Shown here piece by piece: positions 49,683 to 63,320 of a DNA stretch of 64,000 nt. How positions within the stretch are numbered: the first letter of the stretch is position 1; each line of letters starts with the position of its first letter. This DNA comes from Cupriavidus oxalaticus (lineage in GTDB: Bacteria > Pseudomonadota > Gammaproteobacteria > Burkholderiales > Burkholderiaceae): assembly GCF_004768545.1 (NCBI RefSeq), contig NZ_CP038640.1, positions 25,460-89,459 of the forward strand. The letters run 5' to 3'. The notes under the pieces were generated by a model, which did no database searches, was not told the DNA's origin, and saw only the letters and a program-made list of their open reading frames with translations. Both the position numbers and the translations under genes were made by a program.

Positions 49683-50690
49683 TCGGCGCGGGCCTGGCCC
49701 CGCGTCTCACGTTTCATTGACACTTGAGGGGCGCTTTCCGCGCCACCGGCCGAGCTGGCCGACCCCCTTCCTTGGCGTAAAACCTGCGGCGGTGGAGCTG
49801 CTGCGATGCTTGAGGATCGCGCGGCCGGTCGAACCGCGGCGACCTGGTTGGGGAGTGTGAGGGGGCTTTGCCCCCTCGCAAGCTCTCGAACTTACTGCCT
49901 TCCGCCAGGCGCTTGCGCCTGGCTCTCCTAAGCCGTAGCGCCGAAGGCGCTCCATTGTGGGGTGAGGCCGCAAGGCGGCCGAGGGGCGTAGCCCCTGGGG
50001 GGATGGGAGGCCGCTTGCGGCCGGGTGGGATCGAGAAGGGGGGTTTCCCCCCTTCGGCGGCCGGTCATGCTGCGCGGTAGCTTGGGCCGTGTTGCCGTTT
50101 TTTTCGCCAGCCTCTGGTTAAAACTACCTGGTTATATAAAAAGGTTATAAAGACGGTTAAAAACCTGGTTAGCATGACCGAAAAACGCGCGTAAACCGTT
50201 GTCACGCCAAGGAAAAGCGCGAAGAGGCCGCCCCTCAAGTGTCAATGGATAAGCCCCCCATGTGTCAATACGCTGCCCCTCAAGTGTCAAGAACCGCGCC
50301 CCTCAAGTGTCAGTAGGGCCGCCCCTCAAGTGTCAATACCGGGGCAGGGTTCCTAACAGGGTTATCCACAACTTCGGTGGATAACTCCATGCCGATCAGG
50401 CACTTAGGCCGCCTCGGCGGCCGCCTGGACGGCTCGACCAGGCCGAAATCGGCCGCTGCCCCCCAAGTGTCAACATCGCGCCGGCCCCGCTGCCCCTCAA
50501 GTGTCAACGTCAGGGCTGCGCCGGCCGGCCTCGGCCGACTTGTCCCGAAACTGTCCACAACGGCCGCGCCGGTGGGGCAGGGCAGGGAAGGCCCCGGAAA
50601 CGGGCCAGGAAGGCCCGTCAGGGCCGCAAAGCCCAGCGGCGAGGGCCACCGGCCCGGTGAGGGGTCTCCTCGTTTTCAGTGCAATAAGTG
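49683..50690. other. oriV: Vegetative replication origin oriV
   Basis: Non-coding. TrfA iterons (GCCCCTCAAGTGTCA type) occur singly at 49717-49732 (reversed), then as a cluster at 50230-50247, 50254-50270 (degenerate), 50275-50290, 50298-50312 and 50321-50338, then at 50458-50474 (degenerate) and 50492-50508. A DnaA box TTATCCACA is at 50362-50370 with a second dyad partner GGTGGATAA at 50377-50385. An AT-rich stretch with GGTTATATAAAAAGGTTATA lies at 50128-50160. The arrangement matches IncP oriV. Seven hairpins occupy 49859-50055. Confidence 0.92.
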
Positions 50691-50914
50691 ACGGTACGAA
50701 AAGCTAGCACTGGCGCGGAGGTGGTGTTGGTAGATCGTTGATTTCATTGACTTTCCTGTTCACTTTCAAATCTGCGATTCGTGGCGTCAAACCGTGGTCG
50801 GTTTCATCCATTGGTGCCAGTTATCGATGCATTTGGCCGCGAAGGCAGGATTTGGTCAGCATAGCGGTCAACCGGGAAGCGAAACACACCCCGCAAGTTG
50901 ATGCTCTCCAGCCT
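50691..50914. other. Non-coding DNA between oriV and the Tn3-family element
   Basis: No gene, operator or repeat is seen. The GC content drops after about 50690, so the backbone probably ends near there and this is foreign flanking DNA. Confidence 0.4.
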
Positions 50915-50964
50915 GGGGTTCTACGCCGGAACCCCAGAAAATTCCGTCATTCCACATTGTGAAC
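50915..50964 (+). repeat. Left terminal inverted repeat of the Tn3-family element
   Basis: Begins GGGGTTCTACGCCGGAACCC and contains the Tn3-like CCCAGAAAATTCCGTC block. The first 21 bases form a perfect 7-bp dyad (GGGGTTC/GAACCCC). Confidence 0.88.
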
Positions 50965-51002
50965 GTCAATCGGTTTGTTGCCTGACGTGCCGAGCGAGTA
51001 AC

Positions 51003-52694
51003 TCAGTCGGTAAATGCCTGCCCGAACTGCCGTGCCCGCTTTACATCGTCGGTATGCAAGTAAATCGACGTGGTCGAAATCGACGCGTGACGCAGGTTAT
51101 CTCGTACGGCGCTCAGCTCAACCCCTCTGGCGATCGCGTGGGTCGCATGGGTGTGCCGCATCCAGTGCGGAGAGGCCCGATGCAGCTTTTCAGCCAGCAC
51201 CGGATGGTCGTTCTTGATAATCTGCGCGACGAGCCGAAAAAACCGGCGCATGACTTCCCACAGCCGCAAGGGCTTGATGCCGGCATCGGCGTCGTCAAGG
51301 CTGCCAATCAGGGACGTGGTCGGATTCCAGTGAGCACGGCTGACAGGAAGCCCCCGCTCCTGCAGATATCGGTCCAGCGCTGTGCGCGCTAGGGGTGTCA
51401 GGGTAACGCGGGCTGGCTTGCCGCCCTTGCCGACCACGTGCAGCCAGTGATCACCGGCTGCGTCGACTTCGATGCTGCGCAGTGTGGCGTCAGCCAGTTC
51501 GCTGATCCGCAGTCCCGTTGCGTAGCCGAAATCCAGCATGAACCGCAACCGTTGCGCAGCGGGCGCCTGCCAGCCGTACGACCACTCGAGCCCGTTGGCG
51601 ATGGTGCGCGTCAGCATCCATTCTCCTTCGGTGAAAGCGTGCGAGGTTTCAAGAGCCATGGCGCGCTTGCTGCCGCGTACCTTGATGCCGGAGAATGGGT
51701 TGGCCACGACGTAGCGCTGCTCGACCAGCCAGCGGAACATGGCGCTGAGCACGGCAAGCGCATGCGCAATCGAACGGGCCGAGAGGTTGTCGACAAACGG
51801 GCGCCAGTCCGTTGATGTGCGCGGCCGCGGTGGCCCGACCCAGCGTTCTCGCGGTGTAGGTCTGCGCAGAAACGCCCTGTAGTCGGTGGCATCCCGGGTG
51901 GTCAGCGAAGACAGCGCCTTGCCGCGAGCAACGATGCCCCAGAGAATCAGCCGTTCGGCTTCCTTGCGGTAGGCCCGCTGCGTGGCCGGGGATTCGTGCA
52001 ACGCGAGCCATGCCTGGATAGCGTCGTAATCGTTGTCGACGCCGAGGATGCAGGCCGACACCGGTGCGCGGAAGGCGCCGGCGGATCCGTCGATCTCGTG
52101 CGGTAGCCGTAGTTGCTCCCAAGGCGTCACGACTGACTGCCGATCCGCGATGATCAGTGCGCGGGCCCGCTCCGTGAGCGCCGGGTACGCGGCAAAGAAG
52201 GCCTCGATCCTTCTTGCACTGGCCGGCCCGAGACCCGGAATGACGGTCCACCACTGCCGGCGACGCGGAATCCGTACCGTGAGATCGGCCAGGGTCCGGA
52301 TGCCGGCCGCGTGCAGGGTGCGGGCAGCGCGATTCGGCAGCCAGTGCGCAATGTCGTCGCCGATCTGCGGAGCTGGCGCAGGCATGATGCGCAGTAGCTC
52401 GACAGCCTGCGTGGTGGCGCGCGCATGATGCATACGCTTTTGGGCCGGGCATTCGAACAGCGTGGCCAGATCTGCCCGCTGTCGGTTACGGGCATAAAGT
52501 GCCAGTTGCCGGCGGATCTGGCCGATGACGCCGCGGGCTGACTGGCTGTGGCTGAGCCGATCTTGCATGTACCGGTGTGCCGCCTCACGCGAGGATGCGC
52601 CCTCGTACCAGGCACGCAGCGCTGCCAGTGCATCAGCATCAGGAAAGTCGGTCGGGATGTCGGCGGCGGACGGGCTCGTGGGGCGCGTTTTCAT
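51003..52694 (-). CDS. Tyrosine recombinase of the Tn3-family element (resolvase role)
   Basis: A 563-aa tyrosine recombinase, much longer than TnpI of Tn4430 (about 280 aa) or TnpS. Residues 1-200 carry an unusual N-terminal part with a helix-hairpin-helix (VIPGLGPASARRIEAFFA near 155-172). A core-binding domain follows (AIQAWLALHESPATQRAYRKEAERL), then the catalytic domain with Arg near 395 (ATGLRISELAD), HxxR near 509-512 (HWMRHTHAT) and Tyr near 543 (SIYLHTDD). It is divergent from tnpA, and the 143-base gap holds a loxP-like core. I infer it resolves cointegrates in place of a serine TnpR. Confidence 0.85.
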   Translation of the reverse strand: MKTRPTSPSAADIPTDFPDADALAALRAWYEGASSREAAHRYMQDRLSHSQSARGVIGQIRRQLALYARNRQRADLATLFECPAQKRMHHARATTQAVELLRIMPAPAPQIGDDIAHWLPNRAARTLHAAGIRTLADLTVRIPRRRQWWTVIPGLGPASARRIEAFFAAYPALTERARALIIADRQSVVTPWEQLRLPHEIDGSAGAFRAPVSACILGVDNDYDAIQAWLALHESPATQRAYRKEAERLILWGIVARGKALSSLTTRDATDYRAFLRRPTPRERWVGPPRPRTSTDWRPFVDNLSARSIAHALAVLSAMFRWLVEQRYVVANPFSGIKVRGSKRAMALETSHAFTEGEWMLTRTIANGLEWSYGWQAPAAQRLRFMLDFGYATGLRISELADATLRSIEVDAAGDHWLHVVGKGGKPARVTLTPLARTALDRYLQERGLPVSRAHWNPTTSLIGSLDDADAGIKPLRLWEVMRRFFRLVAQIIKNDHPVLAEKLHRASPHWMRHTHATHAIARGVELSAVRDNLRHASISTTSIYLHTDDVKRARQFGQAFTD

Positions 52695-52723
52695 GTCATC
52701 GAGTTTAATATGGAAACAATGCC

Positions 52724-52749
52724 ACAGAGATAATAAAGCTTATCTCTGT
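52724..52749. other. Putative core recombination site
   Basis: Perfect 10-bp inverted repeat ACAGAGATAA/TTATCTCTGT separated by the 6-base spacer TAAAGC, located between the divergent recombinase and transposase genes. The arm-spacer-arm geometry is that of dif/loxP-type cores for tyrosine recombinases. Confidence 0.72.
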
Positions 52750-52837
52750 AGAATGCGGGAGTTCAATATTTCTGTCGTACCCCATGTCGTGATATCACAA
52801 AATTGAAGGATCTGACGTTGCGTGGAGAGGATGGTCG

Positions 52838-55800
52838 ATGATCAACAAGAATAAGCTGCTCAGCGTCTTTTCCGACGCCGAACAGGAAGCCCTGTATGGC
52901 CTGCCTGATTTCGACGATGCGCAGCGGCTGGAATACCTGGCATTGACCGAATCCGAACTGGCGCTCGCCAGTAGCCGGCCCTCCATACCCGCGCAGGTCT
53001 ATTGCATCTTGCAGATTGGCTACTTCAAGTCCAAGCACGCCTTCTTCCGCTTCGATTGGGACGAGGTTGAGGACGATTACGATTTCGTGTTGAGCCGCTA
53101 TTTCCACGGCGAGCCGTTCGAACGCAAGCCGATCACCCGGCACGAGTACTACGCCCAGCGCGAACAGATCGCTGAACTGTACGGCTATCGACCGTGGGTG
53201 GCCGCCTTCCTGCCGCAACTCATGCAGCAGGCCGCGCAGATCGTACGTCGCGACGTGACACCGGGATTCGTCGCCGCCGAGCTCATCGTGTGGCTCAATG
53301 AGCACAAGATGATCCGGCCCGGCTACACGACCTTGCAAGAGCTAGTCAGCGAAGCCCTGTCCGTCGAACGTCGGCGGCTGGGCGACCTGCTCACCGGCGT
53401 ATTGGACGAATTGACCCAAACCGCGCTAGACCAACTTCTGGTGCGCGATGATACTCTGTCGAAACTGGCGGCGCTGAAACAGGATGCCAAGAATTTCGGC
53501 TGGCGTCAGATGGTCCGCGAACGCGAAAAGCGCGGCACGCTGCAGCCGTTGCACGAAATCGCCAGGACGCTGCTGCCCCGGCTGGATATCTCGCAGCAGA
53601 ACGTGCTGTACTACGCAAGCCTGGCGAACTTCTATACCGTCCACGACCTGCGCAACCTGAAGGCGGATCAGGCGCAGCTCTACCTGCTGTGTTACGCCTG
53701 GGTGCGCTTCCGACAGCTCACCGACAACCTGGTCGATGCGATGGCCTTCCACATGAAGCAGCTCGAGGAAGAAAGCAGCGCGGGCGCGAAACAGTCACTC
53801 ATCGCCGAGCAAGTAAAACGCCATCGGGAAACGCCGCAGATCGGCCGCCTGTTGTCGCTCTATGTGGACGACAGCGTAGCCGATCCGACGCCGTTCGGCG
53901 AGGTGCGTCAGCGCGCCTATAAAATCATGGCCAAAGATGTGCTACAAAACACGGCGCAACGCATGACGGTCAAGCCGCTGAGTCAACTGGCACTACACTG
54001 GTTGGCGGTGGACGGCCTAGCCAAACGTATTCGCCGTCACCTGCGCCCCTTGTACGTCGAGCTCGACTTCGTCGGCACCTCCCCAGACAACCCGTGGCTC
54101 GCGGCGCTGGCTTGGGTCAAGGGGGCCTTCGCCAAACAGCAGCGCCTGTCACAACGACCGCTCGCCGAATGTCCCGCGGCCACGCTGCCGAAGCGCCTGC
54201 GACCGTACCTGCTGATCTTCGGCGCTGATGGTCAGCCGACCGGTTTGCACGCCGATCGCTACGAATTCTGGTTGTACCGCCAGATCCGGAAGCGCTTCCA
54301 GTCGGGAGAGATCTATCTCGACGACAGTCTGCAACATCGTCACTTCTCCGACGAGCTTGTTTCGATGAACGAGAAGGCCGACGCGCTGGCGCAGATGGAG
54401 ATCCCGTTCCTGCAGCAGCCAATCGATGCCCAACTCGATGCGTTAGCGGCCGAGTTGCATGCACAATGGCTGGCCTTCAACCGAGAGCTGAAACAGGGCA
54501 AGCTTACGCACCTGGAATACGACAAGGATACGCAGAAGCTGATTTGGCGCAAACCGAAAACCGAGAACCAGAAGGTGCGTGAGCAGGCATTCTACGAGCA
54601 ACTGCCATTCTGCGATGTTGCCGACGTGTTCCGCTTCGTCAACGGCCAGTGCCAGTTCCTGTCGGCGCTGACGCCATTGCAGCCGCGCTACGCGAAGAAG
54701 GTAGCGGACGCCGATAGCCTGATGGCGGTTATCATCGCTCAGGCAATGAACCATGGCAACCATGTCATGGCGCGCACCAGCGACATTCCGTACCACGTTC
54801 TGGATAGCACCTACCAGCAGTATCTGCGTCAGGCGACGCTGCATGCGGCCAACGACTGCATCAGCAACGCCATCGCCGCGCTGCCGATCTTCCCGTACTA
54901 CTCGTTCGATCTCGATGCGCTGTACAGCGCCGTCGATGGGCAGAAATTCGGCGTCGAGCGACCGACCGTGAAGGCGCGTTACTCGCGCAAATACTTCGGA
55001 CGAGGCAAAGGCGTCGTCGCCTACACGCTGCTGTGCAATCATGTCCCGTTGAACGGCTACCTAATCGGCGCGCACGAGTACGAGGCGCATCACGTGTTCG
55101 ACATCTGGTATCGCAACACGTCGGATATAGTGCCGACTGCGATCACCGGCGACATGCACAGCATCAACAAAGCCAACTTCGCTATCCTGTATTGGTTCGG
55201 GTTGCGCTTCGAGCCTCGCTTCACAAACCTCGATGACCAGTTGCAGGAATTGTATTGTATCGACGACCCGGCGCTGTACGAGAAATGCCTGATTCAGCCG
55301 ATCGGACAAATCGATCGGCAGCTCATCACCAGTGAGAAGACAAATATCGATCAGATCGTCGCCACGCTGGGCCTCAAAGAGATCACGCAGGGCTCGCTGA
55401 TCCGCAAACTATGTACGTACTCGCAGGAAAACCCGACACGTCGCGCGATTTTTGAGTTCGATAAGCTCATTCGTACCATCTACACGTTGCGTTACCTGCG
55501 CGACCCGCAGCTCGAGCGAAACGTGCATCGCTCCCAAAACCGCCTCGAGTCTTACCATCAGCTTCGTTCGACCATCGCCCAGGTCGGCGGCAAGAAGGAA
55601 TTGACCGGCCGCACCGACATCGAAATCGAGATCAGCAACCAGTGCGCCCGGCTGATCGCCAACGTCATCATTTTTTACAACTCGGCGATTCTGTCGCATC
55701 TACTGACGAAATGGGAGGCCAGTGGCAACGCCAAGGCGCTGGCGCGGCTTACGCAGATATCACCGGCAGCCTGGCGGCATATCCTTTTGAACGGGCACTA

Positions 55801-55864
55801 CACTTTTCAAAGCGACAACAAAATCGACCTGGACGCGCTCATTGCAGGGCTCGAATTGGAGTGA
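52838..55864 (+). CDS. tnpA: Tn3-family transposase TnpA
   Basis: A 1008-aa Tn3-family transposase of full length. The N-terminal DUF4158-like part (MINKNKLLSVFSDAEQEALY) precedes the catalytic domain with Asp700 (YSAVDGQKFG), Asp772 (ITGDMHSINKAN) and Glu904 (NRLESYHQLR). It acts on the 50-bp ends to produce replicative cointegrates. An AGAGGATGG lies before the start. It appears intact. Confidence 0.94.
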   Translation: MINKNKLLSVFSDAEQEALYGLPDFDDAQRLEYLALTESELALASSRPSIPAQVYCILQIGYFKSKHAFFRFDWDEVEDDYDFVLSRYFHGEPFERKPITRHEYYAQREQIAELYGYRPWVAAFLPQLMQQAAQIVRRDVTPGFVAAELIVWLNEHKMIRPGYTTLQELVSEALSVERRRLGDLLTGVLDELTQTALDQLLVRDDTLSKLAALKQDAKNFGWRQMVREREKRGTLQPLHEIARTLLPRLDISQQNVLYYASLANFYTVHDLRNLKADQAQLYLLCYAWVRFRQLTDNLVDAMAFHMKQLEEESSAGAKQSLIAEQVKRHRETPQIGRLLSLYVDDSVADPTPFGEVRQRAYKIMAKDVLQNTAQRMTVKPLSQLALHWLAVDGLAKRIRRHLRPLYVELDFVGTSPDNPWLAALAWVKGAFAKQQRLSQRPLAECPAATLPKRLRPYLLIFGADGQPTGLHADRYEFWLYRQIRKRFQSGEIYLDDSLQHRHFSDELVSMNEKADALAQMEIPFLQQPIDAQLDALAAELHAQWLAFNRELKQGKLTHLEYDKDTQKLIWRKPKTENQKVREQAFYEQLPFCDVADVFRFVNGQCQFLSALTPLQPRYAKKVADADSLMAVIIAQAMNHGNHVMARTSDIPYHVLDSTYQQYLRQATLHAANDCISNAIAALPIFPYYSFDLDALYSAVDGQKFGVERPTVKARYSRKYFGRGKGVVAYTLLCNHVPLNGYLIGAHEYEAHHVFDIWYRNTSDIVPTAITGDMHSINKANFAILYWFGLRFEPRFTNLDDQLQELYCIDDPALYEKCLIQPIGQIDRQLITSEKTNIDQIVATLGLKEITQGSLIRKLCTYSQENPTRRAIFEFDKLIRTIYTLRYLRDPQLERNVHRSQNRLESYHQLRSTIAQVGGKKELTGRTDIEIEISNQCARLIANVIIFYNSAILSHLLTKWEASGNAKALARLTQISPAAWRHILLNGHYTFQSDNKIDLDALIAGLELE

Positions 55865-55920
55865 TCGAATTTTCGGCGGTTCTGGCTTGGAATCCCTTAT
55901 TCCTGTTACGGTGGAATACG

Positions 55921-56223
55921 ATGCCACAACCAGGTAATCCTTTACCCCCAGCCGTGGTCAACACCTGGCGACTGAGCGTCGGCACGTCGCTGTTCGTGAT
56001 CGATATCCTGGCCGACGGCAGCTGGCGACCGGCGTATATTGCGCCAAAGCGGCTGGGTGGCTGGACGATGGATGTGTTGCCGAACATGCCGCCGACGTTA
56101 GTCGATATCGCTCCCTCGGTACGCACCTGGGCGCGACAGTACGGCGCGAATGTAACGAACCGGCGCACGCCGGCGCGCCGGTTTCCCGCGCAAACCGCTT
56201 CTTCGAACAGGACGCCAGAATGA
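55921..56223 (+). CDS. Passenger protein 1, unknown function
   Basis: A 100-aa protein, first of three same-strand genes after tnpA. It starts MPQPGNPLPPAVVNTWRLSV and contains WRPAYIAPKRLGGWTMDVLP; the last 20 residues are basic. No signal peptide or known motif is visible. It overlaps the next gene by four bases (ATGA), so they are co-translated. Not recognised. Confidence 0.6.
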   Translation: MPQPGNPLPPAVVNTWRLSVGTSLFVIDILADGSWRPAYIAPKRLGGWTMDVLPNMPPTLVDIAPSVRTWARQYGANVTNRRTPARRFPAQTASSNRTPE

Positions 56224-56483
56224 ACATGCTGAAACGTCGTCTCGATGCGACAGACGAAAAGCTGCAGGAGCTGAAAACAGCCCGCAAAGCGGCAGCTAAG
56301 GCGCAGCGCCAGCAGGTCAAGCAAACGCGCGCGGATCGCGAGCGAAAGATCATGCTGGCCGGCGAGGCGTTGCTGCGGCGTGTCGATCGCGGCGAGTGGG
56401 ATGAAGCCGATTTCCGCGCGATGATGGACGATTATCTGTCGCGGCCCGCCGATCGCGCGCTGTTCGAGCTCGACGATGTATAG
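56220..56483 (+). CDS. Passenger protein 2, small coiled-coil protein
   Basis: An 87-aa protein, highly charged and helical (residues 1-45 rich in Lys/Arg/Gln, a coiled coil), with an acidic C terminus (EWDEADFRAMMDDYLSRP). It overlaps passenger 1. The composition suggests a protein partner or nucleic-acid-binding role, but no family is recognised. Confidence 0.62.
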   Translation: MNMLKRRLDATDEKLQELKTARKAAAKAQRQQVKQTRADRERKIMLAGEALLRRVDRGEWDEADFRAMMDDYLSRPADRALFELDDV

Positions 56484-56559
56484 CCTTTGATGTTCGACGT
56501 CGACGCACCGCACAGCCAGGTCGGCAAATGTTGATTTGATTCACGATGAAGGATGCCCG

Positions 56560-57132
56560 ATGCTGCCAACGCTCCGCATGAACCGGAATTTTGTCGAGGC
56601 CTTGCTGGCCGAGCGCGCGCCCTGCTTTGCGATGGGACTCGTGGCCGAGGGCCAGACGCACTATGCTTGCCTGGCACTGCGGCCGGTGGATGACATTCCG
56701 AACGACGTAACACGCAGCGGTTTCAACTTTGGCCACTCGATACGCGGCACCGACGACTTCGAGGTCGTACACTTCGGCTTAGAGTTTTACGGCTACCGCA
56801 TCTTCAATGCGCTGATCAATCCGAGCAACTTCATCGCCAGGACAATCCTGTCGCACATGGTCGACACGAAGGCGTTTTTCTTCTTCGCGGTCAACCCGTC
56901 AGGCGGTGTGACGGTGTTCAAGTCCGGCATCGGTGAATGCAGCCTGGACAGCATCGAGTCTAATCTCGAGCGGATACTGCGCTCGAGCACGTCCGATGCT
57001 CAGTACGACGCGGCGCTGACAACGTTCAGCGACCATCCAGATCCGGTCGGGCCGATGCTGCACTGGGTTTGCCGGGACTGCGAAGATTGTCTCGACCTGT
57101 CCCACAATGTAATCGAACTGGGCCCCGCGTAA
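56560..57132 (+). CDS. Passenger protein 3, unknown function
   Basis: A 190-aa protein; the ATG at 56560 follows AAGGATG, with an alternative in-frame start at 56536. It has an alternating hydrophobic, beta-rich pattern (FAMGLVAEGQTHYACLALRP, FEVVHFGLEFYGYRIFNALI) and a C-terminal Cys pair (WVCRDCEDCLDLS). No signal peptide. It ends 88 bases before the right terminal repeat. Not recognised; I think similar proteins accompany mobile DNA in Burkholderiales, but cannot verify this. Confidence 0.62.
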   Translation: MLPTLRMNRNFVEALLAERAPCFAMGLVAEGQTHYACLALRPVDDIPNDVTRSGFNFGHSIRGTDDFEVVHFGLEFYGYRIFNALINPSNFIARTILSHMVDTKAFFFFAVNPSGGVTVFKSGIGECSLDSIESNLERILRSSTSDAQYDAALTTFSDHPDPVGPMLHWVCRDCEDCLDLSHNVIELGPA

Positions 57133-57219
57133 CGGTCCTGATGGTCCGTGTGACCGAGACCGTCATGTCACTCACCGGACGTCGCTCCAACATTCTTCGG
57201 CTGGAATAAGCCGATTAAT

Positions 57220-57269
57220 GTTCACAATGTGGAACGACGGAATTTTCTGGGGTTCCGGCGTAGATCCCC
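57220..57269 (-). repeat. Right terminal inverted repeat of the Tn3-family element
   Basis: Read on the minus strand it starts GGGGATCTACGCCGGAACCC and matches the left repeat except at positions 5 and 35 in the first 50 bases. Confidence 0.88.
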
Positions 57270-57296
57270 ATCCTTTTGATGCGGAATCTGGCGCTT

Positions 57297-57670
57297 TCAT
57301 CCCGCCGCGTCCGTGAGGCCCAGACGCATCCGATAGTCCCCGAGCAACTGCTGCTCGTCGAACTGCGCTGTGAGCTTCGTCAGATCGGCGGTCAGCGATT
57401 CACGTGCTTCGCGCAGCCGCGTCAGTTCAGTCGCCTCAGTCCTCGCGGTGTTAGCAGCGCATCGTGCTCGGCCTTGGTGCGTGCGTGGTCGGCGAGCGAC
57501 TGGTTCAACGTATTCTGTAACTACTTGCTGTGCGCTTGCAGCTCGCGTAGATGCCTTGTCGCGACGCCGGCTTCGGCGACGAGCCGCGCGCTTTCTCTGT
57601 TCAACTGGGTTATTTCATTTTGCTTGACGATCAGCGTTTGGTTCACCTGGCGCAGTTCAGCCTGCAGTTA
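57297..57670 (-). pseudogene. KfrA-like coiled-coil gene, C-terminal remnant
   Basis: The minus strand encodes ELRQVNQTLIVKQNEITQLN, RLVAEAGVATRHLRELQAHS, a stop, LNQSLADHARTKAEHDALL, then after a frameshift LTRLREARESLTADLTKLTA and LLGDYRMRLGLTDAAG with a stop at 57297-57299. This is the heptad-rich C terminus of a KfrA_N-type protein, broken by at least one nonsense and one frameshift change and cut by the junction at about 57670. It is unrelated to the intact kfrA in detail. Confidence 0.65.
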
Positions 57671-57873
57671 CTGAACCCCCAGCATCCTTGGCAGCGCGGG
57701 TCGAATGAAAATGCGAACGGGCTATCGAGACATCCCCAACGGCACCTACATTTCGGTGTACCAATTGGCTACTCAATACCGTGGCGAGGCGGCTGGATGG
57801 GCGACCGAGGAAAACCCTGAACCACGGAACGCCCGCCGAACGATTTCAGCAAACTGTTGCATCCACCGGTTGA
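57665..57873 (+). pseudogene. IS30-family transposase C-terminal remnant
   Basis: PQHPWQRGSNENANGL at about 57676-57723 matches the catalytic-Glu block of IS30 transposases (PhsPWQRGsNENtNGLlR). After a frameshift, RPRKTLNHGTPAERFQQTVA, then STG and a stop at 57871-57873, matches the family's C terminus. No intact frame or terminal repeats are visible. Confidence 0.7.
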
Positions 57874-58226
57874 ATCCGCACGAGCAAGCGGTCATTCAAA
57901 TGACAGTAATGTAGATCGTGTCGTCGACATTGCAATCAAGCGCTCTTTTTTCAACGTTGGCTGCACCGGCCCGTCGTCTGCTCACGTGCTTAATAGCATC
58001 ATCAGCAAGGCGGTCGACACCGGTACGAACTTCCCAAATTAGATGATCTGCAGTTACGTCCGGTCCAGAAAACACGTCACGTCGTTGCGCACCGCCTTGC
58101 CTTAATCGCGCGACAACCTTCCCGCGTCGCCACACGCCATCTCACGCTGCGCAAGATCACGCTTCCCCTCCCGCAACCCGAGGTGAGCGCTTCCGTCTCA
58201 CCTCGAATAGATCGCGACGCCACTCC
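57874..58226. other. Non-coding stretch downstream of tfdB
   Basis: I see no gene, terminator with a T run or operator in these 353 bases. It is lower in GC than the backbone. Confidence 0.4.
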
Positions 58227-60023
58227 TTATATAGCTCGAGACGTAACGCGCAGCGCGCTCGACCTCTCTGACTGGCGTCCGAGGATCCGCCTCATGGCGG
58301 ACACGAGGTCGCCTGCCGCATCGGCCGGCAAGGACGTCGCCCGATAGGCGACGTGGAAATCCGGCCGCACCAGGATGGCGCCGGTGTCGATGATCTCGGA
58401 AATTCTCGCGAAGTCGCCGTAATGATCCTCGTAGGCCTGGCCAGGCCCAATGATGCGCACCGTCACTGCCACCCCGAGTTGCCGGCTCACGGCCGCCGCG
58501 GCATCCTGCCAGGCTGCGCCGCCAATCCCGGTAAAGAGAGTGAAGTTGCCCTTCCCGCAGAGATCCTTTGTTGAGATACGGTGTCCATCACCACTCGCAT
58601 AGACCCAGACATGCGGCATGGGCGCTCCAGGCCGCGTCGACGCCTGGTGATAGAGCTCGACGTCGCGGAAGACTTCGTCCGGCGAATTGTCTGCCACGAT
58701 CGCGGGACTGTCGTAACGCTGATTCATTTCGACGCCGTGGGCGTTGTAAACGTAATTGGTCCCGGCGATGGCCTCGCGTAACCGCGTGCGCTGCGCTTGC
58801 GCCTCGGGCCCAGGTTCCTTGCGGCGAGCCATGTTGCTCTTCATCTCGTCGGCGCTCTTGGCCTGCGGCAACCCCAGAGCCATCGCGATCGGCGGGAAAT
58901 CCTCAAGCGACTTGTTCGCCCTGCAGACCACCTGCTTCGCGATCGGCGCCCGCTCGATCGTGTAGGTGTCCAGCAGGCTCTCGTCGGCCGTGCCGTTCAG
59001 CACCATGGCGATCTTCCAGGCGAGATTGAAGCTGTCCTGGATGGAGGTGTTTGAGCCGAGTCCGTTGGTCGGCGGATGCCGGTGGACCGCGTCGCCGGCG
59101 CAGAAGACCCGTCCTTGCTGCAACCGGGTCGCGTACATGTCGTTGACCGTCCAGGTCGAGATGCCCTCAATTTTCAGCGGCACGCTGTCATCGCCGATCA
59201 GATTGTGGACGATGCGGCGGGCGAAGGATTCCGAGATCTCCGGCGGGCCCTGCTCGACGTCGTACCCCCAGATCGCCAGCCATTTGTTCCACGGCCGGAC
59301 CATGCGCACCACGCCGATGCCGAGACCGCCGATATCGGAGCCGGGCTGGATGACCCAGTAAAGGACCGATGGACGATGCGCGACGTAGCGGTCGAGATCA
59401 GCCTCGAACAGCAAGTTGATGGAACCGGACTTGCCCATGGTACCTTCGAGCGGCAGGTCCAGGTCTGACACGACGCGGCTGTTGGCGCCGTCGGCGCCGA
59501 TCAGATATTTCGACCGGACGGTAAACTCTTCGCCATTCAGACGATCGCGCAAGCGCGACGACACGCCGTCAGCATCCTGTTCGTGTCCAAGATACTCTGT
59601 GTCGAAGCGCACCTTGCAGCCGTCGAGTGCGGCCGACTTGACGAGAATCGGCTCGAGATAGTTCTGTGGCAGGTCGCACATGGAGGTCGGCGAACATTCG
59701 TCGTAATCGGCGCGCCGGCGAACATCCGTCCCCCAGGTGCGAATCCGACCGAACTCCTCGCCGGCCAACGAGGCGCAGATGGTGTTCTCGCCCATTAGGT
59801 CATTCGGCGCGGCGTAGAGGCGGGCTTCAGCTTCGAGACCGAGATCACGCAGGATCTCCATTGTGCGTTGGTTGGTGATGTGGGCACGCGGCGTCGGAGC
59901 CGTCCAGTTGTACTTGTTAATGAGCATCGTCCTGACACCGTATCGCGCAAGCAGTGCCCCCGCCGAAGCGCCCGCCGGCCCGGTGCCAACGACCAGCACG
60001 TCGGTTTCGATCGTCAATGCCAT
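58227..60023 (-). CDS. tfdB: 2,4-Dichlorophenol hydroxylase TfdB (pJP4 module-I type)
   Basis: A 598-aa FAD monooxygenase; start at 60023 (MALTIETDVLVVGTG) after GGAGGAAG. The FAD motif GTGPAG is at residues 13-18 and the second FAD motif GRVFCAGDAVHRHPP lies near 305-320. It hydroxylates 2,4-dichlorophenol to 3,5-dichlorocatechol with NADPH. I recognise the N terminus and the length as the TfdB of pJP4. It is the last gene of the second tfd operon but is separated from tfdF by an IS21 remnant. Confidence 0.95.
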   Translation of the reverse strand: MALTIETDVLVVGTGPAGASAGALLARYGVRTMLINKYNWTAPTPRAHITNQRTMEILRDLGLEAEARLYAAPNDLMGENTICASLAGEEFGRIRTWGTDVRRRADYDECSPTSMCDLPQNYLEPILVKSAALDGCKVRFDTEYLGHEQDADGVSSRLRDRLNGEEFTVRSKYLIGADGANSRVVSDLDLPLEGTMGKSGSINLLFEADLDRYVAHRPSVLYWVIQPGSDIGGLGIGVVRMVRPWNKWLAIWGYDVEQGPPEISESFARRIVHNLIGDDSVPLKIEGISTWTVNDMYATRLQQGRVFCAGDAVHRHPPTNGLGSNTSIQDSFNLAWKIAMVLNGTADESLLDTYTIERAPIAKQVVCRANKSLEDFPPIAMALGLPQAKSADEMKSNMARRKEPGPEAQAQRTRLREAIAGTNYVYNAHGVEMNQRYDSPAIVADNSPDEVFRDVELYHQASTRPGAPMPHVWVYASGDGHRISTKDLCGKGNFTLFTGIGGAAWQDAAAAVSRQLGVAVTVRIIGPGQAYEDHYGDFARISEIIDTGAILVRPDFHVAYRATSLPADAAGDLVSAMRRILGRQSERSSALRVTSRAI

Positions 60024-60367
60024 GTCTTCCTCCGTCAATTGTTATGTCTCTCTCTTTGTGAGAAGAAACAGGGATTGTTCATCTCGCGTTCGGCCAAGTC
60101 GATTTTTTAAACTTCACCGTCTTTAACGCGCGATGAATAGTAAGGCTGAAGAGCCTTTGTTGCGCGCAAAGTAAAAATGAGCCACTTCGCGCAAAGAAAA
60201 TCCGAGCCACCTCCAGTACAGTCGGCCTTTTTCGCGCGAAGGCTGGCGATGCTCCACAAGGAACAGTGGATGCAAATTCATGTGCTTCGCTTTAGCTTGA
60301 AGACCCGATGTCGACTTTGGAACGGGCTCTTCACCGCTACCGTACTAAACGCGGAGTGCAGGTCACA
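60024..60367. other. tfdF-tfdB spacer with IS21-family end remnant
   Basis: A 344-base spacer. At 60158 an IS21-like end begins (TGTTGCGCGCAAAGTAAAAA, then TGAGCCACTT and CGAGCCACC), and at 60249 a frame starts MLHKEQWMQIHVLR, the opening of an IstA-type transposase that loses similarity after about 14 codons. No right end is visible. A promoter for tfdB may lie in the AT-rich part 60030-60130. Confidence 0.6.
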
Positions 60368-61432
60368 TTATTTGAAATCCGGTCTTCGCCCACGAAACGC
60401 ATTGACTAACAATGTTTCCAATGCGTCCGATTCCAGCGGACGCGGATTCGGATATTGGTCCCTTAGCGCGAGGTCGCGTACCCTCGGAATATCTTCAGGC
60501 CGCATACCGATTTCGGCGAGACTGAGTGGTGCTCCAGCATTTCTGGCGAGATCATATAGCGCGCTCGGGACGTCACTACTGCCGGCGACTTCCTGAAGCA
60601 GTCGCTCAGCTGGCGCGGCGTACGGCAGATTGTATGCCAGTGCGTGTGGTAGTACGATTGCATGTGTCTCCGCGTGGGGAAGATTAAGGGTTCCCCCAAG
60701 CGTGTGGCAGAGTTTGTGATGTAGCCCCATGCCCAAGTGGCACAGTGCAGTGCCACACATCCATGCCCCAAAAAGGGCATCCGTACGCGCTTCGGCGTCA
60801 GTCGGCTTTGCCACCAGGCGCGGGATTGCATCGAACAAGGCGCATATGCCCTGCTTACACATGGTCTCGAGAACGGGATTGAGGTCGGCCGAGTACAGAC
60901 CTTCTGCGGCGTGAGCGATCGCATTCAAGGCGCTCGTCACCGAGATAGCAAGCGGCAAATCGACCGTGAGCAATGGATCATAAATCACGGTCTTCGGTAG
61001 CACCTTGGGGTCGCGGCCGGTCCTCTTCATTCCGCCTTCCGTGACACCCCAAATGGTAGTCATTTCACTACCGGCATAGGTCGTTGGTATAACCAGACTT
61101 GGGACGTCAAGGTTCATCGAAAGGATTTTTGCGAGTCCGGTGGTCGATCCTCCCCCGATCGCGATGATTGAGTCGGCGTCAGTATCGTTAAAAGCCCGCT
61201 CGGCTTTCTGGATGACGTCGACGGGAACATGCATCGTCGCGCCATCGAAATATCCAGCTACCCTGTCACCTATCGGACGGACGATATCCTTCGCTAACTC
61301 GCGTTGTTCCGGGCTGCTTAATACCAAGGGCCGGCGTGCGCCAAGGCGTCCTATTTCATCTGGCAATGCAGAAGCAGTGCCCGCCCCGAAGACGACCCTC
61401 GGGCTCAGGTAGTCAAGCGTGAACTTCTTCAT
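60368..61432 (-). CDS. tfdF: Maleylacetate reductase TfdF (pJP4 module-I type)
   Basis: A 354-aa iron-type alcohol dehydrogenase family maleylacetate reductase. IAIGGGSTTGLAKIL is the NAD(P)H-binding run, followed by VIPTTYAGSEMTTIWG and GLHHKLCHTLGG. It makes 3-oxoadipate from (chloro)maleylacetate. It overlaps tfdE by four bases. The protein matches what I remember of pJP4 TfdF. Confidence 0.94.
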   Translation of the reverse strand: MKKFTLDYLSPRVVFGAGTASALPDEIGRLGARRPLVLSSPEQRELAKDIVRPIGDRVAGYFDGATMHVPVDVIQKAERAFNDTDADSIIAIGGGSTTGLAKILSMNLDVPSLVIPTTYAGSEMTTIWGVTEGGMKRTGRDPKVLPKTVIYDPLLTVDLPLAISVTSALNAIAHAAEGLYSADLNPVLETMCKQGICALFDAIPRLVAKPTDAEARTDALFGAWMCGTALCHLGMGLHHKLCHTLGGTLNLPHAETHAIVLPHALAYNLPYAAPAERLLQEVAGSSDVPSALYDLARNAGAPLSLAEIGMRPEDIPRVRDLALRDQYPNPRPLESDALETLLVNAFRGRRPDFK

Positions 61433-62133
61433 GAAGGGTCCTTCAACATTGCAAGCAGTTCGAGCGTCCGAGCATTGGCCACAGTTGTCGCCGCCTGATC
61501 GAAATTTGGGCTGGATGACCGTGCAAATGAATGCCCCACTGGATACCAGTGCAGACTCAGATTTTTGTTTCGACCGAAATGCTCTTCGAGAATGCTACGG
61601 GCCTCTTCTGTGACATAGTGATCTTTGGTACCCATGTGGAACATCGCCGGTCGTGTAATAGCTGGCACCAGTGAGACCTTTTTTTCAAGTCCCACGCCGT
61701 AATAGCCGATTGAGCAATCGGCCAATGATCGCGCCGCCACATCAAACGCCAGCGCACCTCCCAGGCAGTACCCGACTACAGCGACACGACCGTTCGAGAA
61801 AGGGAGCGCACGAGCGTATTCAATGGCGCATGAAAGGTCATTGACTCCTGCCTCCATGTCAAAGTCGCGAAACAACGCAAGCGCCTGTTCCCGTTCCGAT
61901 GGTACGTTTGCATCAAGCTCGATATTCGGCGCCTGTCTCCAGTACAGATCCGGACACACGCAACCAAAGCCCGCACCAACGAGCCATTCCACGGTTTCTC
62001 TTATGAAAGGCGTGATCCCGAAAATCTCCTGCGCGATCACGACGATGGGTGCGGAGTCCGTCGTCGGCTTTCCGAGGTAGGCACCAAAGCGACCACCCGA
62101 GCGCGACGTGATCTCAACGCCGTCTGATAACAT
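61429..62133 (-). CDS. tfdE: Dienelactone hydrolase TfdE (pJP4 module-I type)
   Basis: A 234-aa alpha/beta hydrolase; start at 62133 (MLSDGVEITSRSGG). The catalytic Cys is in VVGYCLGG, the acid in MGTKDHYV and the His in YPVGHSFAR. It hydrolyses chlorodienelactone to chloromaleylacetate. It overlaps tfdF and follows tfdD by 74 bases. Confidence 0.94.
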   Translation of the reverse strand: MLSDGVEITSRSGGRFGAYLGKPTTDSAPIVVIAQEIFGITPFIRETVEWLVGAGFGCVCPDLYWRQAPNIELDANVPSEREQALALFRDFDMEAGVNDLSCAIEYARALPFSNGRVAVVGYCLGGALAFDVAARSLADCSIGYYGVGLEKKVSLVPAITRPAMFHMGTKDHYVTEEARSILEEHFGRNKNLSLHWYPVGHSFARSSSPNFDQAATTVANARTLELLAMLKDPS

Positions 62134-62207
62134 ATTTAGTCTCCAGTTACACATGCGCAGTTGCATTCGAGGCGATCCACAGCCGCGGCCTGCGCTGCGC
62201 GTTTTGC

Positions 62208-63320
62208 CTAGCTGACGCGTGCGTATTGGCGCACCTTGTCCTCGTCAAGCGTCATGCCGTGACCTACGCCAGTGGGAACCTGCAGTTCGTAATCCCGGAT
62301 CTCGAGTGGCTCGTGGCTCAGCGTGTCTGCCAACACGAAGGGACCGATCAGTTCGCAACCGAACGGAAGCGATGGAACCGTAGAATAGAGCTGAAGTGCA
62401 ACCGATGTGCCGATCGTCGAGTCAAGCATTGTTCCGCCATACGATGCAATCCCGCTTGCTTCCGCGACCGCTGCTATCTTTTGCGTCGCCGAGACCCCTC
62501 CCATGTTGCAAAGCTTCAGCGAAAAGACATCCACACTTCGGTCGCGCGCGAGATCGAATGCCGAGGCCAACGTACTCAGGCTCTCATCGGCCATGATGGC
62601 CACGCGGTTGTTGTCGGAGAGCCGCCTCAACGCTTGCGTATTTTCGCGGCCGACCGGCTGTTCGATGAGTTCCACGCCAAGCGCCTCCAGTTCAGGAATG
62701 TAGACGGACGCCACTTGCTCGTCCCAAGCCTGATTCACGTCAACGCGAAGGTAGGCCTTCGATCCGAGACTATTTGACAAAGCCTCCATATGGATGAGAT
62801 CGTCTTGGGGCGACCGGAAGCCAAGCTTGACTTTGAAGCGATTGTGTCGTCGTCTTTCAATCATCTCGACGGCAGAATCGAGATCGCGTTTCGTATCTCC
62901 GCTCGCCAATGTCCAGGCAATCGGAATCGCACTGCGCAACGGCCCGCCAAGTAACTCGGCGATCGATACGCCTAACGCTCGAGCTTTGAGATCCAGTAAC
63001 GCCATCTCGACCGCAGCCTTTGCAGAGGCGTTTCCGGTGACGGCACGCGCCATGGTTTGCAGTGCACCTGAAACGTTGAACGCATCAGTTCCGAGGAGGT
63101 GGGGCGCGAGATACCGTTCCACGATGATCTTGATCGTCTCCGCACACTCTGCGCTCCAGACGGGACCACCAACGCTTCCACCCTCGCCGACACCAACGAG
63201 CCCCTCCGAATACACCCGGACGATAACGTAGCTCTGCTGGTGCACGGTAGTGATCGACATCTGGATCGGCCGCTTGGTCGGCACATCCACGATCACTGCT
63301 TCAATCGCGTCAATCTTCAC
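62208..63320 (-). CDS. tfdD: Chloromuconate cycloisomerase TfdD (pJP4 module-I type)
   Basis: A 370-aa enolase-superfamily enzyme. NRFKVKLGF holds the base Lys; RVDVNQAWDE, VELIEQPVG and IMADESLST the metal ligands; FSLKLCNMGG the second Lys. It overlaps tfdC by four bases. It cyclises chloromuconate to dienelactone with chloride loss. Confidence 0.95.
   Translation of the reverse strand: MKIDAIEAVIVDVPTKRPIQMSITTVHQQSYVIVRVYSEGLVGVGEGGSVGGPVWSAECAETIKIIVERYLAPHLLGTDAFNVSGALQTMARAVTGNASAKAAVEMALLDLKARALGVSIAELLGGPLRSAIPIAWTLASGDTKRDLDSAVEMIERRRHNRFKVKLGFRSPQDDLIHMEALSNSLGSKAYLRVDVNQAWDEQVASVYIPELEALGVELIEQPVGRENTQALRRLSDNNRVAIMADESLSTLASAFDLARDRSVDVFSLKLCNMGGVSATQKIAAVAEASGIASYGGTMLDSTIGTSVALQLYSTVPSLPFGCELIGPFVLADTLSHEPLEIRDYELQVPTGVGHGMTLDEDKVRQYARVS

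Follow-up and report, generated by a model that had tools for sequence, protein, structure and literature searches.

Organisation of the transposon

The window analysed here, a 64,000-nucleotide stretch of Cupriavidus oxalaticus DNA (contig NZ_CP038640.1), contains a complete 6,355-bp Tn3-family transposon at 50915-57269, with outermost letters GGGGTTCT...AGATCCCC. Read from the left, it comprises a minus-strand tyrosine recombinase gene, a gap of 143 bp, a plus-strand tnpA and three small open reading frames (ORFs). This is a Tn4401-type element whose recombinase class is already known, and cointegrates made by its transposase are very probably resolved by the tyrosine recombinase at a palindrome in the gap. 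The main features are:

50915..50980, plus strand: left terminal inverted repeat (GGGGTTCTACGCCGGAACCCC...), 66-nt arm, 91% complementary to the right arm
51003..52694, minus strand: tyrosine recombinase of the TnpR (Tn4401) subgroup, 563 aa, assigned by profile, alignment and model
52695..52837, no strand: divergent intergenic region, a putative res with the core site, where both promoters are expected
52724..52749, no strand: predicted crossover core, palindrome ACAGAGATAA-N6-TTATCTCTGT, with arms at 52724-52733 and 52740-52749 and a spacer at 52734-52739
52838..55864, plus strand: TnpA, a Tn3-family DDE transposase, 1008 aa, 84% identical to Tn4401 TnpA, assigned by profile matches and alignment
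57204..57269, minus strand: right terminal inverted repeat (reading GGGGATCTACGCCGGAACCCC... on that strand), 66-nt arm

Both ends are inverted repeats that start with GGGG (left GGGGTTCT; right, on the other strand, GGGGATCT), and their 66-nt arms were detected at 50914-50979 and 57205-57270, which confirms the intact ends described in an earlier reading of the DNA made without database searches (the sequence-only reading). That reading was also correct in describing a full-length TnpA with Asp700, Asp772 and Glu904; these residues were read off an alignment with Tn4401 TnpA, and the protein scored 851.6 bits against NF033527 (cut-off 500) and 374.9 bits against PF01526, with PF13700 matched too and Tn4430 TnpA as its Protein Data Bank match (E 4.7e-25). 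TnpA is thus an ordinary full-length Tn3 transposase.

The TnpAs of the Tn3 elements on pCT14 and pAKD4 are nearly the same protein (86% and 85% identical), but these elements have a different resolution module, with a serine resolvase gene (PF00239, 154–156 bits) colinear with tnpA. A Lelliottia TnpA (locus L025) is 87% identical, with no resolvase annotated beside its gene. Identity with IS1071, the name used for the pJP4 transposase in the relevant part of PMC2842291, was considered and rejected on the grounds that these close relatives have serine resolvases (pCT14, pAKD4) or none annotated (L025), no direct comparison with the IS1071 TnpA having been made. A TnpA tree was built from 9 rows, but it has a single starred branch (the window with L030) and a long-branch warning, so the order in which resolvase types arose cannot be read from it.

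The recombinase belongs to a known class

The recombinase matched tyrosine recombinase/integrase families and DUF3701, and no serine resolvase family. Its helical N-terminus carries DUF3701 (PF12482; residues 101-191, 86.2 bits) with a helix-hairpin-helix, and is followed by a core-binding part and a catalytic domain at about 346-560 (PF00589, 66 bits). Across 32 aligned recombinases, including that of the window, R396, K423, H510, R513, H536 and Y545 are invariant, in agreement with the Arg, HxxR and Tyr motifs noted previously. A fold search with the whole-protein AlphaFold model (mean pLDDT 64.4; fairly confident at the helical N-terminus, about 20-180, and in the catalytic domain, about 350-520) matched the catalytic domain to Tn1549 integrase, XerA, Cre, XerH and lambda integrase, with a fifth or more of the rows covering model residues 346-559 only.

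The protein is identical to one on pJP4 and 64% identical over 562 residues to Tn4401 TnpR (pairwise; pEC4365 copy), and in a plasmid tblastn search relatives at ~64% carry the annotation 'Tn3-like element Tn4401 family resolvase TnpR'. The section of PMC8138268 (Smyshlyaev et al. 2021) on a TnpR subgroup of tyrosine recombinases, defined by an N-terminal DUF3701 with a helix-hairpin-helix, names Tn4401 TnpR as a member, ranks the class among the most abundant of its kind in bacterial genomes and takes this abundance as a sign of the role of Tn4401, but gives no recombination site. In the open-access literature searched, no other paper used the term DUF3701. Likewise, no resolution assay or defined recombination site for the class was found in the portions of that literature available to the search, and passages of PMC9330008, PMC8430219, PMC13367494, PMC3414803, PMC11495026, PMC7930500 and PMC8725868 gave no help with the site.

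The sequence-only reading had proposed a distinct, previously unseen resolution module. In its favour, PMC7157771 (2020, on Tn3 toxin-antitoxin genes) distinguishes three resolvase types, serine TnpR, TnpI (in only three elements) and TnpS+TnpT; the scheme leaves a DUF3701 tyrosine recombinase without a place, and its main text makes no mention of Tn4401. However, the TnpR subgroup of PMC8138268 already covers the protein class, Tn4401 has the same layout, and the part of the JMP134 genome paper (PMC2842291, 2010) on pJP4 had remarked on an integrase beside a Tn3 transposase. We therefore regard an unseen module as hardly credible. What stands is that a Tn3 element carries a tyrosine rather than a serine recombinase; its novelty does not, as pJP4 encodes the identical protein and Tn4401 shares the divergent gene order. 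Nor is the recombinase exceptional in length, since Tn4401 TnpR has 571 aa, and the supposedly unusual N-terminal helix-hairpin-helix lies in a known domain.

A conserved palindrome is the probable crossover site

The intergenic region contains a 10+6+10 palindrome with the spacer TAAAGC (plus strand), with its centre 42 nt before the start codon of the recombinase. A scan of the 143-bp gap for arms >5 bp and spacers no longer than 12 gave no further palindrome. We compared this site across 86 recombinase genes, namely the window gene, five plasmid genes (L018-L021, L026) and the top 80 among 434 relatives in genomes, where five of these 80 loci (L027, L028, L029, L038 and L048) hold the window's own element. 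Using GATAA-N6-TTATC with at most one mismatch in the ten core letters, within 300 bp upstream of the gene, the core was found upstream of 78 of the 86 genes and was exact in 74, and in 53 of the 78 the site centre lies 42 nt upstream of the predicted start. The placing of a likely resolution site in 52695-52837, between the divergent genes, is supported.

The exact core occurs just 78 times in 1.36 Mb of compared loci. Occurrences away from recombinase starts are rare, with three found (L022:4575, in a distant-homologue locus, L039:16339 and L052:13707) when L002, L003 and L011, which are the same element again, are left aside. Those in L039 and L052 are second exact cores, at most 10 kb from the recombinase, with spacers unlike that of the recombinase site of the same locus and no recombinase match there. 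The window's own genome has three exact cores, of which the other two have different arms and lie in 3-kb stretches without a significant recombinase match.

Outside the core the arms vary together. Among 72 distinct site sequences, Watson-Crick pairs filled 0.62 of the cells at arm positions 6-11, compared with 0.46 after shuffling (maximum 0.53 in 1000 shuffles), although shuffling leaves relatedness in and this excess is therefore not a probability. Double changes are present at several arm positions, and sliding the arms against each other lowers pairing at most, but not all, positions. The spacers comprise 29 different sequences. The site is thus conserved, covarying and fixed beside the recombinase gene, as judged from these alignments, and the palindrome at 52724-52749 is the probable crossover site of the recombinase. 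Accessory half-sites like those of the TnpI IRS (DR1/DR2) were also sought and none was established: the best extra half-site in the gap matched 8 of 10 positions, a value reached by 198 of 2000 shuffles.

In the mechanism that we propose, TnpA would copy and paste the element between replicons, generating a cointegrate with two direct copies of the element and 5-bp target duplications, which the divergent DUF3701 recombinase would then resolve. Two recombinase molecules would bind the inverted arms of the palindrome in each copy, and the four molecules would synapse the two sites and exchange strands via Y545 across the 6-bp spacer at 52734-52739, as Cre, Xer and TnpI do. In most loci inspected, a TAAACT-like box follows the palindrome shortly before the ATG. 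Since the recombinase gene begins just past the palindrome, binding of the enzyme there should damp the recombinase promoter itself and might also repress that of tnpA. Binding, the place of crossover, autoregulation, resolution activity and the part played by the N-terminal domain are all features that we infer from sequence.

Several observations weigh against resolution at this palindrome. Eight of the 86 genes (L032, L041, L044, L045, L047, L080, L081 and L094) lack a recognisable core; at least four of these (L041, L044, L045 and L047) have a cut or diverged 5' end and, judged by eye, L032 and L094 keep an apparent right half-site and L081 has a core with a 5-nt spacer. The distant homologues L022 and L023 (32–36% identical), set aside before the count, have no such site. 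The site of Tn4401 itself carries a single mismatch in the core and its arms pair at few positions; in that element the palindrome scan favoured a different location. Covariation at arm position 10 does not exceed chance (96 of 1000 shuffles gave as high a value), and some positions show equal or better pairing once the arms are slid (position 6 is better at slide -2). The protein model has pLDDT <50 over most of residues 182-350 and over the C-terminus (538-563), including Y545, and its core-binding part is poor. Among relatives below 70% identity, 53 of 56 have no tnpA match above 100 bits nearby, which indicates that the recombinase is not tied to transposons. Finally, RecA-dependent resolution could also yield separate plasmid copies.

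The position of the palindrome could also mean that it is an operator only, bound by the recombinase or another protein to repress the gene, with crossover elsewhere or with RecA resolving cointegrates instead. The frequent 42-nt distance to the predicted start would suit an operator, as would the TAAACT-like box, by which the site should overlap the recombinase promoter. Nevertheless, arms of ~10-11 bp around a 6-bp spacer of fixed length (L081 being the exception) and varying sequence are typical of a tyrosine recombinase core site, the gap offers no other palindrome, and the catalytic residues of the recombinase are invariant. We consider the operator-only explanation improbable, and resolution at the palindrome remains our preferred reading.

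The recombinase gene and its site appear to form a portable block

When recombinase genes in different surroundings were compared, DNA homology often broke off on one side at the palindrome's outer edge and on the other soon after the stop codon. For 111 of 206 pairs the left break fell 12-20 nt past the site centre. Once identical window copies were removed, this held for 86 of 161 pairs, while 41 broke nearer the centre or on the gene side and 34 further out; the pairs are not independent. Site and gene look like one portable block, which we found next to a Tn4401-like TnpA and also next to an unrelated TnpA accompanied by tnpC (L018 type; 21% identical to that of the window). This second transposon type, seen in L018, L031 and L033, encodes TnpA with tnpC and a 401-aa hypothetical protein along with the same recombinase-plus-site block, and homology among the three copies stops ~1,780 nt past the recombinase start.

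Most of the recombinase genes in genomes had no Tn3 transposase detected nearby. Across the 80 genome loci, tnpA was divergent and within 400 bp in eight, and a match above 100 bits lay elsewhere in the flank in 12, while two had weak matches only and 58 had none, leaving 60 without a match above 100 bits; this search used four query TnpAs and 8-kb flanks, so that transposases farther away or too distant in sequence would be missed. Of the 58 loci, 45 cover at least 4 kb on both sides. Five apparently lone genes (L019, L050, L051, L056 and L057) end near a stretch that by eye resembles the end of the L018 transposon, hence such genes may belong to larger transposons. No neighbour family (ORFs of at least 120 codons within 6 kb) was common to more than seven of 63 loci, namely these 60 and L019, L020 and L021, and no partner gene of stand-alone recombinases emerged. 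Some genomes have multiple lone-recombinase copies: L075 and L096 overlap on the same contig but point opposite ways, and in L057 a second gene lies on the opposite strand, in a span starting ~1.9 kb after the start of the first gene.

The same observations might suggest that an independent mobile element has inserted into a Tn3 transposon and that the recombinase is its integrase, given the 60 genome loci with no transposase match of this strength in the examined flanks and the block beside a TnpA only 21% identical. However, the recombinase lies within the terminal repeats and moves with tnpA as a unit in 14 plasmid records, no second site copy marks a far end, and the other two exact cores of the genome have different arms. 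A search for attL/attR likewise found no clear half-site after the stop codon in the loci inspected by eye, which does not support an integrative element. An independent integrase is accordingly very unlikely.

A broader view, a little less likely than not, is of the block as a fourth type of Tn3 resolvase, a portable cassette of one gene and a 26-bp palindrome, with its left boundary at the palindrome. Unrelated transposases would have adopted it, near-identical TnpAs would carry either the cassette or a serine resolvase, and where it stands alone in Burkholderiaceae it could resolve replicon dimers or fusions in the manner of Cre or Xer.

Copies, target duplications and flanking DNA

A search of plasmids gave 14 records, one of them pJP4 (NZ_AY365053), that contain the whole element with an identity of 100.0% (rounded); eight of these, pJP4 among them, had the top bit score and six were slightly lower, and a 15th record covered 82% of the element. 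We read the flanks of 14 full copies, comprising the window, pJP4, four genome loci and eight plasmid copies, and found perfect 5-bp target duplications at six (two of the six window, pJP4 and genome copies; four of the eight plasmid copies). A 6,355-bp unit at full length in 14 plasmid records, together with these duplications, is more than chance. Unlike these six, the window copy lacks a duplication, its flanks being AGCCT on the left and ATCCT on the right. Burkholderia vietnamiensis G4 alone has three duplication-flanked copies, one on each of three plasmids, and each of them differs from the window copy by a single base. The duplications and the G4 copies indicate that the element transposes and that each separate replicon ends with its own copy; its anatomy, catalytic residues and transposition with target duplications are thus evident at sequence level.

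The left flank of the pJP4 element is TGAAA, compared with AGCCT in the window, while the right flank is ATCCT in both. This right flank (window 57270 onwards) is common to the window, pJP4, L029 and L048, whereas their left flanks differ, except that pJP4 and L029 agree, which points to rearrangement or to the tfd side having moved jointly. A 6.6-kb stretch (window 56478-63118) that takes in the transposon's right end and neighbouring tfd-type genes occurs a second time, inverted, on the genome's own plasmid contig at C7:2725-9365 (L114) with 99.96% identity, and a third terminal repeat lies at C7:8574-8638. On the other side, the left flank matches plasmid pAKD15 with 100% identity as far as window 50916, a match reaching into the annotated IS1071 transposase gene of that plasmid. 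The far end of the pAKD15 IS1071 copy is also matched, inverted and at 94%, by window 50661-50766. From this left flank (50661-50914), the element seems to sit inside a piece of IS1071.

Passenger genes

Three hypothetical genes follow tnpA:

55921..56223, plus strand: passenger ORF 1, hypothetical, with its start as annotated in relatives
56220..56483, plus strand: passenger ORF 2, hypothetical, 87 aa
56560..57132, plus strand: passenger ORF 3, hypothetical, 190 aa

Family searches gave no match for the portion of ORF 1 from 55954 or for ORF 3, and for ORF 2 returned a sub-threshold Pfam match to Kri1 at best (17.5 bits, cut-off 25.2), the other searches being empty. The ORF 3 product is 40–47% identical to proteins on Methylomonas, Acaryochloris and Pseudomonas amygdali plasmids. 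As regards a TnpT-like helper, none of the three matches anything above a curated cut-off, no direct comparison with a TnpT having been made.

Comparison with known resolution systems

The closest known element is the blaKPC transposon Tn4401 (pEC4365 copy, L026), with which the window element shares TnpA (84%), the recombinase (64%), their divergent order and a core, AATAA-N6-TTATC in Tn4401, 42 nt upstream of the recombinase start. Both features that mark the Tn4401 type are present, namely a DUF3701 domain with a tyrosine catalytic domain, and a recombinase gene divergent from and adjoining a Tn4401-like tnpA. Unlike Tn4401, the window element has three small hypothetical genes in place of blaKPC or IS21-type cargo, and its palindrome is more perfect.

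TnpI of Tn4430 and Tn5401, with its IRS site, is also a tyrosine recombinase with an inverted-repeat core beside its own gene, although it is much shorter than the window recombinase. TnpI acts in both resolution and regulation, a dual role that for the window element is only proposed. Its layout differs, since tnpI is colinear with tnpA and preceded by its site, as described in the resolvase overview of PMC7157771, whereas the window genes are divergent. TnpS+TnpT of Tn4651 and TnXax1 share with the window element a tyrosine recombinase and a divergent arrangement around an inverted-repeat site (rst), but, in the accounts consulted, the divergent pair there is tnpS and tnpT, which encodes a helper protein, rather than recombinase and tnpA. 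Compared with the TnpR subgroup as set out in its section of PMC8138268, the window recombinase has the same DUF3701 N-terminus with a helix-hairpin-helix, core-binding and catalytic domains; the difference is that here most relatives below 70% identity have no detected transposase nearby.

Significance

Neither the element nor its protein class is new; what merits testing is the predicted site together with the cassette behaviour. For many relatives of 'Tn4401 resolvase TnpR' no transposase was detected nearby, so that attributing all of them to Tn4401 would overstate how far this transposon has spread. The recombinase class is abundant and occurs in Tn4401, the transposon of the KPC carbapenemase, yet the literature searched, in the parts available, gave no defined site for it. 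The 26-bp candidate site makes the mechanism of this recombinase directly testable on the catabolic plasmid copy.

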